This document shows, one piece after another, positions 5,539-16,323 of a stretch of DNA of 64,000 nt (positions are counted from its first letter, which is position 1; each line of letters opens with the position of its first letter). This stretch comes from Mesorhizobium sp. (GTDB lineage Bacteria > Pseudomonadota > Alphaproteobacteria > Rhizobiales > Rhizobiaceae), in the NCBI RefSeq assembly GCF_024509055.1, contig NZ_JANINM010000006.1:1-64000 (forward strand). The letters run 5' to 3'. Under the pieces are notes generated by a model. The model did not search any database and was not told where the DNA came from. It saw only the letters and a list, made by a program, of their open reading frames with translations. A program made the translations under genes and the position numbers.

Positions 5539-6057
5539 CTACAGTTTTGCCTTGATGCGCTTCATCTTGCCGCTGGCATAGTCGCCGTAGCGCAGCTGCG
5601 ATTTGCCATGCCGGTCCCTGAATGCGTACCAGTCACCATCCGGCAGTTTGCGCTGGTAGATTATCTTTCCGGCCTGGCGGTGCTCGAAGCAGGTCATGGA
5701 TGCCTTGGCGCCCCACGCGCCATGCCACGTCGCGCGGTAGCATAGCTTGCCGCCGCCGGGTATGAACCATATCCCGTCTCCATAGCCGGGCTTGCCCTTG
5801 TCCGAAGTCCAGGCATCGAACTGCCGCTGCTTGACCGCGAAGAACGCGGCGCCGTTCTTTCCCCAGAGCCACGAATGGTTTTGATAGAGCTGGTAGACGC
5901 CTTCATCCGATACGGCGGCCGCCTTTGCCGCCTGGCCGTCAATCTTGTTCGCGTCCTTGGCCATCGCGGAAGCCTGCAGGCTCAATACAAAAACGGAGCA
6001 GGCAAATGCCGCTCCGAGACAATTTCCCAAGACCCATTTCACAATTTCACCCCACAC
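5539..6057 (-). CDS. DUF995-type secreted protein
   Basis: Signal-peptide-like N-terminus; YQLYQNHSWLWGKNGAAFF...CYRATWHGAWGAKASMTCFEHR; same architecture as the 13072 protein. Confidence 0.65.
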   Translation of the reverse strand: MWGEIVKWVLGNCLGAAFACSVFVLSLQASAMAKDANKIDGQAAKAAAVSDEGVYQLYQNHSWLWGKNGAAFFAVKQRQFDAWTSDKGKPGYGDGIWFIPGGGKLCYRATWHGAWGAKASMTCFEHRQAGKIIYQRKLPDGDWYAFRDRHGKSQLRYGDYASGKMKRIKAKL

Positions 6058-6173: not shown

Positions 6174-7088
6174 TCAAGGCAGGACGTGCTGGGTGACTCG
6201 CCAGTCGGGCTTCCCATAGCCGCCAAGCCAAGGCCACACTTCCTTCTGGTTGAAGTAGACCACGGACGTCAGGGCCGGAAACTCCGCATAGGACTTGCGG
6301 GAATCTTCCGCCCATTGCGATACGTAGCCCTGCTTGCCCACATAGCCCAGCTCGGCGACGATAACCGGCTTATTGAATTTCGCAACGCGGTCGTAGCCGG
6401 GCTTCAGCGTCTCGGCGAAAGTCCGGTCCCGGCCGGTCTCGTCGTTGTCTTTCTTCTGCAGGCCGAACACCGACAGACCGATTACATCGACATAGTCGTC
6501 GCCCGGATAGTACTTCTCCAGGCCTTCCACGCCCTTGGGTGACCACATGTATTTGGCCGCGGGCGCCGCTTTGCGGCAGACATCGACCTCGCGCTTGTAG
6601 GCTGCGATCCAGTCCTTGGGTGCCCAGTTGGCCCAGGTGAAACGGCCGTTCGTGTCTTCCATTTCCTGCGCCCAGCGGATGGTCACCGCGCTCTTCATCT
6701 GCCCGGCCAGATTGCAGATCGCACGCATGTTGGCGTCATATCTGCCGCTCAAAATGCCGTCGCGCAGTTCGTTCGGCGTGATACGCCAGTCTTTCGACCA
6801 CGTCCAAGGCTCGATGGTGATCAGCAGCGACCTGCCGCGCTGCTGGGCATAGGCGTCGGCCAGCGGCAGTGTCGACAGATCGACGTCTTCCCACGGCAAG
6901 AACAGTTCCTCGATGCTGGCCGTCTTGTCGTTGCTGAAGTCGCCGTAGGGGTCGTACGAGCCGAACGCCGATGCGGCGGTGCCCGTTTGAATAGGGTCCG
7001 TTCCCGTTGTCGAGCCCGCCGAAGCCGGCAACGCGAGGCTCCCGACGATGAGTGCCGACACAAGTGCACTTGTTGCGGAGTATTTCAT
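6174..7088 (-). CDS. Secreted GH26-like glycoside hydrolase
   Basis: Signal peptide MKYSATSALVSALIVGSLALPASA; candidate catalytic Glu in TIRWAQEMED and PVIVAELGYVG. Confidence 0.65.
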   Translation of the reverse strand: MKYSATSALVSALIVGSLALPASAGSTTGTDPIQTGTAASAFGSYDPYGDFSNDKTASIEELFLPWEDVDLSTLPLADAYAQQRGRSLLITIEPWTWSKDWRITPNELRDGILSGRYDANMRAICNLAGQMKSAVTIRWAQEMEDTNGRFTWANWAPKDWIAAYKREVDVCRKAAPAAKYMWSPKGVEGLEKYYPGDDYVDVIGLSVFGLQKKDNDETGRDRTFAETLKPGYDRVAKFNKPVIVAELGYVGKQGYVSQWAEDSRKSYAEFPALTSVVYFNQKEVWPWLGGYGKPDWRVTQHVLP

Positions 7089-7387
7089 GCCCAATCTCCC
7101 ATGGCCTCTACCTCCGTCGGAGTTCCGCCGGATGTTGAAGCTCGCCACTGCATGCCATGAAACCGGCACGCACACCCAACCTATCGGTCTGCCGACGTGA
7201 TCTGCGGGTTGTCTGAGCGACTGGTGCCGGCGCTCATGGCGCAAGCCGGTTCACCAAGATAGCCTCTTGGGTCGCTTCGGTGCCGAACCCGGGAGAGGGT
7301 CGCCGCGATACTCACAAATTCGCGTCAACGTTACGATATTATCCCTGCCTAAATAAAGATCGTATCCCTGTCGCGAGTCAAGGGCAA

Positions 7388-7404
7388 TTAACCGTTACTT
7401 AACC
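7388..7404. promoter_or_regulatory. CtrA-type box TTAACCGTTACTTAACC
   Basis: Exact TTAA-N7-TTAACC in the divergent intergenic region. Confidence 0.55.
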
Positions 7405-7574
7405 TTGTTGTCGCCGATATGGTTAACACGCCCGATGGTATGATCATCGCCCGTAGTATTTCGTCGACGGAAATCCATTCGCCGGGGTGCCGCAAGGCGG
7501 AAATTCAACTGGCTGGTGAAGACAAAAGGCAGCCGGCTCAATGCGTTAGGTTAACCAGTTCTCATGAAGCTTGG

Positions 7575-7589
7575 TTAATGCACGCTTAA
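7575..7589. promoter_or_regulatory. CtrA-type box TTAATGCACGCTTAA
   Basis: Exact TTAA-N7-TTAA, 6 bp upstream of a TTGACT-N17-GATTCT promoter-like sequence (7595-7623) before the GT2 gene. Confidence 0.55.
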
Positions 7590-7682
7590 TTTGGTTGACT
7601 TCGGCTTGGCGCGATCTGATTCTGCAGCCGGGCAAACGCCATCGGCCGTGACTGGCCGGGGCGTGTGAAGCGGCGGGTAGTT

Positions 7683-13685: not shown

Positions 13686-14717
13686 CTATGCGTGGGCGAG
13701 TGTGGCAGGCGCCTTTGGCATTCCTGACGTTGCGGCGGTCGGAGCCAGTCCGAAGAAGGGCGCGGCCGTCCTGACGATGGTATCGATGTCGGAAAGCTCA
13801 GCCGTGAAGCTCAACTTTTCGCGTGCCAGGCTCGGGTCGGCGTAGAGACCGGCGGGATCGCCCGGTCGCCGTGCCTTGTACACCACCGGGACGGGCCGGG
13901 CCGTCACCCTTTCGACCGCCTGCAGGATTTCCCTGATCGAGATGCCGCACCCGGTGCCAAGATTGACCGCCAGGCTGTCGCCGCCGGCTTCGAGGTGCAT
14001 CAGCGCCTTGACGTGTGCACGGGCGAGGTCGCCTACATGGATGTAGTCGCGCACGCAGGTGCCGTCCGCCGTCTCATAGTCGGTGCCGAAGACCTCGATG
14101 GCGTCGATCATGCCGGAGACCGCCATCAGCACGCGAGGCACCAGATGAGTTTCCGGCGTGTGCCATTCGCCGAGTTCTCCATCGGGGTCGGCGCCGCAAG
14201 CGTTGAAGTAACGAAGGATCGCATGCTTCATGCCGTAGGCGGATGCATAATCCTTGATGATCTGTTCGCCCATCAGCTTGCTGCGGCCGTAAGGGCTGAT
14301 TGGATTTTGCGATGAGGTCTCGCTGACCGGCAGCGCCTCCGGTACGCCGTAGGTCGCGCAGCTCGACGAGAAGATCAGGTTGTCGATGCCGCCGCGGCGC
14401 GCGGCATCCAGCACCGCGATCGTGCCTTCGACATTGGTCGAGTAGTAGGCGGCCGGTTCGCTGACCGACTCTCCGACATAGGCCAGCGCGGCGAAATGGA
14501 TGATTGCGCGCGGCTGGTGGGTGTCGATCGCCCGGTGCAAGGCGTTTCGATCGCGAATGTCGCCGATGACCAGCGGACCCCAGGCTACTGCCTTCCTGTT
14601 GCCCCGGCTCAAATCGTCGTAGACGACCGGCAGGTAGCCCGCCGCCGCAAGCTGCTTGCAGGTGTGGCTGCCTATGAAGCCTGCGCCACCCGTCACCAGA
14701 ACGGGGTGCCTCGTCAT
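13686..14717 (-). CDS. galE: UDP-glucose 4-epimerase
   Basis: [39 protein letters not shown] overlap with upstream gene. Confidence 0.92.
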
Positions 14718-15778
14718 GAGCCTACGGCTACGTGGACGGAGGACCGGGCAGCGCTACGCGACCCGACGGATCGGCGGCCGCCCAGCAATGCGTCAAAATA
14801 GGCCGTGGTATGGGCCAGTCCCTCGCTAAGCGCCACCTTCGGCTCCCAGCCGAGGTGTTGCCTGGCGAAGGAGATGTCGGGCTTGCGCTGCCTCGGGTCG
14901 TCAACCGGCAGCGGACGGTGCACGATCCGCGAGCGGGAGTTGGTGTAGTCCACCACGAGCTCGGCCAGCTCCATGATGGTGAATTCCACCGGGTTGCCGA
15001 GATTGACCGGATGCTGCGGCGCAACCGGGGCGTTCATCAGCCGCATGAAGCCCTCGATAAGGTCTTCGACGAAGCAGAAAGAGCGTGTCTGCGTACCGCT
15101 GCCGTAGACGGTGATGTCCTCGCCGCGCAGTGCCTGGACGATGAAGTTCGAGACCACGCGGCCATCGTCCGGCTGCATGCGGGGGCCATAGGTGTTGAAG
15201 ATACGCGCAACGCGGACATCGATGCCGTATGTCCGGGAATAATCGAAGAACAGCGTCTCTGCCGAGCGCTTGCCCTCGTCGTAGCACGAGCGCGGGCCAT
15301 GCGTGTTGACGTTGCCGAAGTAGCCCTCGGGCTGCGGATGCACGAGCGGGTCGCCGTAGACTTCGGAAGTCGAGGCCTGAAAGATCTTGGCGCCGTGTCG
15401 CCGCGCGAGGTCCAGGAGATTGATCGAACCGAGAACGCTTGTCTTGAACGTATGGATCGGATCGGCCTGGTAATGGGGCGGAGAGGCCGGGCAGGCGAGA
15501 TTGTAAATCTCATCGACGGCAAAATCGCCAGGCAGCGCATCGACGACATCATGCTTTATGCAGGTGAAAGACGCATCACCCGCGATCCCTGTCAGGTTGT
15601 ATCGCTTGCCGGTGTGGAAATTGTCGAGCGCGATGACTTCATAGCCATCGCCAAGGAGCCTTTCGCACAGGTGGGAGCCCAGGAATCCAGCTCCTCCAGC
15701 AACCAGAGCACGACCGCGGCCGGCTCCCCTTCGCCCCGAGCTCGCACCCAGTTTAAGAACCTTGATGACCCTGTTCAT
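14714..15778 (-). CDS. NAD-dependent epimerase, UDP-glucuronic acid decarboxylase (UXS)-like
   Basis: [60 protein letters not shown]. Confidence 0.88.
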
Positions 15779-16069
15779 GACATCCCCTTACGCACACACG
15801 TTACCGATCCGGGCCAAAGCGCCGGCGGCGCTCGACCAGGTCAAAACTGAAGCGACCCCTCCGCACGCGCGGAGTCGCCATCACTGATGTGCGTCTAAGA
15901 TTTCTGAGTTCGCGGAGCTCTTGCTGTCGGCTTATTGCTTACCGCTCAGCGTCCCTTTCGCCCTGAATCGCGATCCACGAATCCGGTTGCCACCATCGCG
16001 GAACTGCTCGCCCAAATTGCACACCCAACGCATACAAAGATATACCTGTGGACAGACTAGTCAACCAAA

Positions 16070-16086
16070 TTAGCGTTTTGTTAACC
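16070..16086. promoter_or_regulatory. Near-consensus CtrA-type box TTAGCGTTTTGTTAACC
   Basis: TTAg-N7-TTAACC; one mismatch from TTAA-N7-TTAA. Confidence 0.3.
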
Positions 16087-16323
16087 TGTCTTGTTTGCGA
16101 TTGGTTAATCATGGGATGGGCGCCGTTGCCGTCCGAAGGCGGCAGTATTCCTGCTCGGCAGGCCTCGGCTCTTGGCAATTGAACGGCGTTCCAAAAAGTT
16201 GGCTTCCAGGCCGGAGCGGCAGTCGAACCGGTAGAAGTCACGTTTCCCGGAAGCAATGCGCACGAATAAAGTTCCGCTTCGACGCCGGACGCGCACCGCT
16301 CTGCTTGGATGCCGGGGCGAATA

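Follow-up and report, generated by a model that had tools for sequence, protein, structure and literature searches.

A composite CtrA-type promoter element predicts cell-cycle control of an APS-type polysaccharide locus in Mesorhizobium

Between the divergent GH26 and GT2 genes of a Mesorhizobium polysaccharide locus lie two sequences resembling the full site of the regulator CtrA (TTAA-N7-TTAA), which raises the question of whether the locus is under cell-cycle control and how such control would be exerted. The locus lies in the window, i.e. the whole 64,000-nucleotide stretch of DNA that was analysed, which belongs to a Mesorhizobium genome assembly of 6.68 Mb in 565 contigs (93.5% complete). 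Among open-licence papers, no literature on CtrA control of this locus was found. The genes concerned are as follows:

5539 to 6057, minus strand: DUF995 gene downstream of GH26 (PF06191), with a homologue in the Sinorhizobium operon
6174 to 7088, minus strand: GH26 gene (PF02156), homologue of the Sinorhizobium APS-operon GH26, with GGAGA upstream of its start codon
7683 to 9569, plus strand: GT2 polysaccharide synthase gene, homologue of the APS-operon glycosyltransferase (58-59% to the Sinorhizobium pSymB protein)
13686 to 14717, minus strand: uxe homologue, UDP-sugar 4-epimerase (60%)
14714 to 15778, minus strand: uxs1 homologue, UDP-glucuronate decarboxylase (71% to S. meliloti)

On Sinorhizobium pSymB, an AraC regulator is followed by one operon with the order uxs1-uxe-GT2-DUF995-GH26-DUF995. 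The operon for the arabinose-containing polysaccharide (APS) is activated by the c-di-GMP-binding regulator CuxR (Schaper et al., as described in PMC7902896 and PMC9495663). UDP-glucuronate decarboxylase, epimerase, GT2, DUF995 and GH26, i.e. the APS gene set, are common to the system described there and to the window locus, whereas the window genes are divergent and split instead of following the single-operon order. Judged by its gene content, the window locus is homologous to the Sinorhizobium APS operon but split into several units, and its product would be expected to resemble APS.

The gap between the GH26 start (7088, minus strand) and the GT2 start (7683, plus strand) is 594 bp long. 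A sequence-only reading of the window had placed two exact TTAA-N7-TTAA boxes in it, at 7388-7404 (TTAACCGTTACTTAACC) and 7575-7589 (TTAATGCACGCTTAA), with TTGACT-N17-GATTCT just downstream of the second, and all of these were found at the positions given (7595-7600 and 7618-7623 for the two promoter hexamers). The two boxes, called A and B here, are the only TTAA-N7-TTAA matches in the window; 100 shuffles of the window gave a mean of 0.02, and no shuffle reached two. The elements of the two promoters are:

7353 to 7358, minus strand: probable -10 element CTTTAT of the GH26 promoter, N17 from the -35 element
7375 to 7379, no strand assigned: GANTC site GAGTC, overlapping the GH26 -35 element
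7376 to 7381, minus strand: -35 element TTGACT of the GH26 promoter, 6 bp from box A
7388 to 7402, minus strand: box A, CtrA-type full site TTAA-N7-TTAA of the GH26 promoter, reading TTAAGTAACGGTTAA toward GH26
7399 to 7426, no strand assigned: dyad TTAACC-N16-GGTTAA on the GH26 side, with its outer half-site at 7421-7426
7549 to 7556, no strand assigned: outer half-site GGTTAACC of the GT2 element, whose dyad TTAACC-N16-GGTTAA spans 7551-7578
7575 to 7589, plus strand: box B, CtrA-type full site of the GT2 promoter, assigned from consensus match and footprint
7595 to 7600, plus strand: -35 element TTGACT of the GT2 promoter, 5 bp from box B, near-invariant in the footprint
7618 to 7623, plus strand: probable -10 element GATTCT of the GT2 promoter, including the GANTC site GATTC at 7618-7622

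The near-equal distance between box and -35 element on the two sides had been missed previously. Since each box lies 5-6 bp 5' of a conserved TTGACT, box A was taken as part of the promoter of GH26 and box B as part of that of GT2.

The meaning of the motif in this genome was judged from genome-wide counts obtained by pattern searches. TTAA-N7-TTAA occurs at 28 sites in 6.68 Mb; these are mostly intergenic, and at most three overlap a plausible coding ORF. Over all 13 spacings from N2 to N14, 93 TTAA pairs were counted, with 28 at N7 and an average of 5.4 at the other twelve, an approximately fivefold enrichment (Poisson P of about 6e-12) in which the counts are approximate, as a variable-gap search may give one match per start only. 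The genome-wide scan proposed earlier as a check thus gave enrichment at exactly the N7 spacing, and the reversed control AATT had no peak there (24 vs 24.1). The count of 24 for AATT-N7-AATT was considered as counter-evidence to the enrichment and dropped, because in the spacing series TTAA pairs are rare at every spacing other than N7.

The sites stand before minC, flagellin, pilA with cpaB, tadE, ftsK, rpoD, a penicillin-binding protein (PBP1) and four cysteine-peptidase-like genes of the BTLCP type; DUF1465 is also among the neighbours. Direct CtrA targets in S. meliloti include pilA1, flagellins and minCD (Pini et al. 2015, PMC4433202); the regulator is shared, and pilin, flagellin and minC genes bear the motif in the Mesorhizobium genome too, whereas the main text of that paper names no polysaccharide operon. 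The ctrA gene is present in the window genome, with residues 1-160 (83%) at the end of one contig and 145-225 (91%) at that of another. The N7 enrichment, the types of neighbouring genes and the presence of ctrA make it highly probable that TTAA-N7-TTAA is the CtrA motif in this genome.

Some of the other sites gave observations of their own. A TTAA-N7-TTAA lies just 5' of each of four separate BTLCP (Peptidase_C93) genes (L014, L107, L109 and L115, at 1501, 882, 1563 and 1508, respectively), which suggests a CtrA-linked family. The only other intergenic pair of full boxes in the genome (L012 and L013; C299:14209 and 14383) adjoins a DUF1465 gene. At L111:1523-2183, a full CtrA-type box lies directly 5' of an ORF without a Pfam match which, by eye, looks like a DNA methyltransferase gene.

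In the polysaccharide locus, boxes A and B are parts of a larger element. The extra half-sites GGTTAA at 7421-7426 and GGTTAACC at 7549-7556 complete a composite which, read toward the gene, is TTAACC-N16-GGTTAA-N7-YTAA-N5/6-TTGACT followed by a weak -10 element, and which is in register at the GH26, GT2 and uxs1 promoters. The third copy precedes uxs1 (16036-16108), outside the coordinates of the sequence-only reading; neither it nor the extra half-sites had been noticed there. Its parts are:

16037 to 16042, minus strand: probable -10 element TATCTT of the uxs1 promoter
16059 to 16064, minus strand: -35 element TTGACT of the uxs1 promoter, 5 bp from box C
16070 to 16084, minus strand: box C, TTAACAAAACGCTAA, of the uxs1 promoter, with one mismatch to TTAA-N7-TTAA
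16081 to 16108, no strand assigned: third dyad TTAACC-N16-GGTTAA, in the uxs1 promoter, found by pattern search

Of the 13 genomic matches to TTAACC-N4..30-GGTTAA, five have a gap of exactly N16; three of these five are in the polysaccharide locus, one precedes the flagellin gene and one a pal-like gene. The pilA promoter has the box-N5-TTGAC spacing of the polysaccharide locus without the outer dyad. As a separate observation, the dyad at L178:1501-1528 is immediately 5' of the pal-like gene, which is of the OmpA family and adjoins tolB.

For phylogenetic footprinting, the intergenic regions of 37 Mesorhizobium loci, found as GT2 relatives, were aligned with the window (n = 38). Box A is exact in 36/38 and box B in 20/38, or 33/38 allowing CTAA or an N8 spacer, the species being close relatives and the counts not independent events. 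Pairwise identity is 0.97 and 1.00 for the TTAA half-sites of box A and 0.74 for its spacer, 0.95 and 0.88 for the half-sites of box B and 0.52 for its spacer, and 0.59 over the entire GH26/GT2 intergenic region. The footprinting suggested along with the CtrA prediction thus came out in its favour, with half-sites conserved across the genus and spacers drifting. The outer half-site is retained in 35/38 sequences in the GH26 element (7421-7426) and in 37/38 in the GT2 element (7549-7556), and the columns of the GH26 -35 region (7377-7382) are invariant in all 38; the GH26 -10 element reads CTTATA in relatives. The uxs1 composite has at most one mismatch in 30/30 upstream regions (window included), one of them with an N15 dyad.

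The conservation of the motif, its N7 enrichment, the target-type neighbours, the pilA-like layout, the three promoters in register, the presence of ctrA and the lack of a box in the operon promoters of CuxR-type loci (see below) lead us to read the boxes as probable CtrA sites, within the limits that no more than 20/38 sequences have an exact box B and that box C has one mismatch. It is quite probable that the boxes are CtrA operators and that three units, each with a weak sigma-70-type promoter behind the common composite, are switched on together. The three transcription units would be GH26-DUF995, the GT2 synthase and, for precursor supply, uxs1-uxe. Phosphorylated CtrA is predicted to bind TTAA-N7-YTAA at about -55 to -41, adjoining the -35 element, and cooperative help may come from another CtrA at the outer half-site, which is two turns of the helix away. 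Bound CtrA would recruit RNA polymerase: a predicted site adjoining a good -35 and a poor -10 element suggests an activator contacting the polymerase, and the box position points to activation rather than repression. The expected outcome would be joint induction of synthase, hydrolase and precursor enzymes, presumably at the cell-cycle phase in which CtrA is active. CtrA control of the locus, as judged from sequence, is well supported though unproven; the CtrA proposal of the earlier reading is supported and extends to a third promoter, and it is still a prediction.

Comparison with known promoters bears on the sign of this control. Most CtrA-activated Caulobacter promoters have the site at the -35 position (PMC11264516), whereas the boxes of the polysaccharide locus centre near -48. 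The Caulobacter pilA promoter is alike in having one CtrA site at or adjoining the -35 element plus upstream sites, and there the upstream sites lower and delay expression (PMC11264516); the outer half-site here could therefore be inhibitory. Unlike this Caulobacter promoter, the Mesorhizobium locus has a single inverted outer half-site with fixed two-turn spacing, and this at three promoters. Since minCD of S. meliloti is a CtrA-repressed target, the sign of control cannot be read from the motif alone.

Among the competing explanations, a small but appreciable chance is given to another response regulator of the OmpR family, or some other factor, whose operator is a TTAACC/GGTTAA dyad, the likeness to a CtrA box being convergent. 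The N16 dyad is unusual for CtrA, with three of only five genomic copies in this locus, and the genome has many paralogous response regulators. However, the dyad also stands before the flagellin gene and a simple box with equal -35 spacing before pilA, and in S. meliloti CtrA directly controls genes of both types (PMC4433202). CenR, another candidate for the binding protein, was rejected, since its motif differs (TGA-N8-TGA; PMC9275681).

Somewhat less probable again is that CtrA represses or delays the locus and that activation comes from GcrA, through core-promoter GANTC sites methylated by CcrM. The GANTC site at the GT2 -10 element is conserved in 35/38 sequences and that at the GH26 -35 element in 38/38, the window sequence TGATTCT fits the extended GcrA motif of Caulobacter, YGAKTCK (PMC7987155), and the inhibition of Caulobacter pilA by upstream CtrA sites (PMC11264516) would agree with such an arrangement. 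However, both GANTC sites overlap core elements, and for GAGTC the overlap with the GH26 -35 element alone could account for most of the conservation; GANTC is absent from both the -35 and the -10 element of the uxs1 promoter. Moreover, the box is upstream of the -35 element and not over it, and S. meliloti CtrA acts primarily as a positive regulator (PMC4433202). As GANTC overlaps core elements and the uxs1 promoter is without it, CcrM/GcrA is regarded as a possible additional input to the CtrA-type promoters. Chance AT-rich matches without function can hardly be entertained, for although the boxes are short and the AT content around them exceeds the mean of the window, only 0.02 are expected per 64 kb, the three copies are in register, the boxes are absent from CuxR-type loci (see below) and the footprint, with its conserved half-sites and drifting spacers, contradicts this explanation.

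The CtrA-type locus was compared with collinear APS-type loci, 18 from other Rhizobiaceae genomes, two from Phyllobacterium and two from Sinorhizobium plasmids. In these loci outside Mesorhizobium, cuxR adjoins most, and TTAA-N7-TTAA was absent from the operon promoter in all of them, including those of S. meliloti and S. medicae, with isolated matches elsewhere in a few loci. CuxR-like proteins were found in 23/61 Mesorhizobium genomes; seven genomes have a CuxR-type operon, and none of these seven operons has a box in its promoter. One Mesorhizobium genome, G328, has both a CuxR-type operon and a CtrA-type divergent locus (L152 and L157). In the window genome (93.5% complete), no CuxR homologue was found beyond the level of the shared DNA-binding domain, and none adjoins the locus. 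The CtrA-type GT2s, separate from those of the Sinorhizobium APS system, form one clade with 100/100 support in a tree whose rooting and placement of the long-branched L139 are unsure. CuxR homologues (52-54%) also occur in Mesorhizobium genomes with no APS operon adjoining (L155 and L156).

A genus-wide swap from CuxR to CtrA was considered and rejected, given the CuxR-like proteins in 23/61 genomes and the two versions in G328; the seven CuxR-type operons and G328 point to two versions of the locus and not to genus-wide replacement. We tentatively propose, at a little under even chances, that one genus holds two regulatory versions, a CuxR/c-di-GMP operon and a three-promoter CtrA composite with an inverted pair at two-turn spacing. 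If so, a surface polysaccharide would have moved from second-messenger to cell-cycle control, with an operator geometry shared with the flagellin gene, and homologous genes under differing regulatory input would offer a natural comparison, for which G328 has both versions.

If CtrA does act at the locus, synthase, hydrolase and precursor supply would be made in step with the Mesorhizobium cell cycle, and the production of a surface coat or adhesin would be tied to a particular cell stage in a genus that attaches to legume roots and infects them. A link between CtrA and surface polysaccharides has a likeness in the PdhS2-CtrA attachment control of Agrobacterium, where putative CtrA sites were reported at dgcB and succinoglycan genes; the attachment effect there runs mainly via c-di-GMP and UPP (PMC7003649), whereas the Mesorhizobium boxes are at the APS-type genes themselves.

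One further feature of the GH26 leader emerged from the alignment:

7300 to 7326, no strand assigned: ultra-conserved block TCGCCGCGATACTCACAAATTCGCGTC in the GH26 leader, near-invariant in the 38 sequences

With a single copy in the genome, no Rfam match and no stable fold, this block is conserved more strongly than the CtrA-type boxes.
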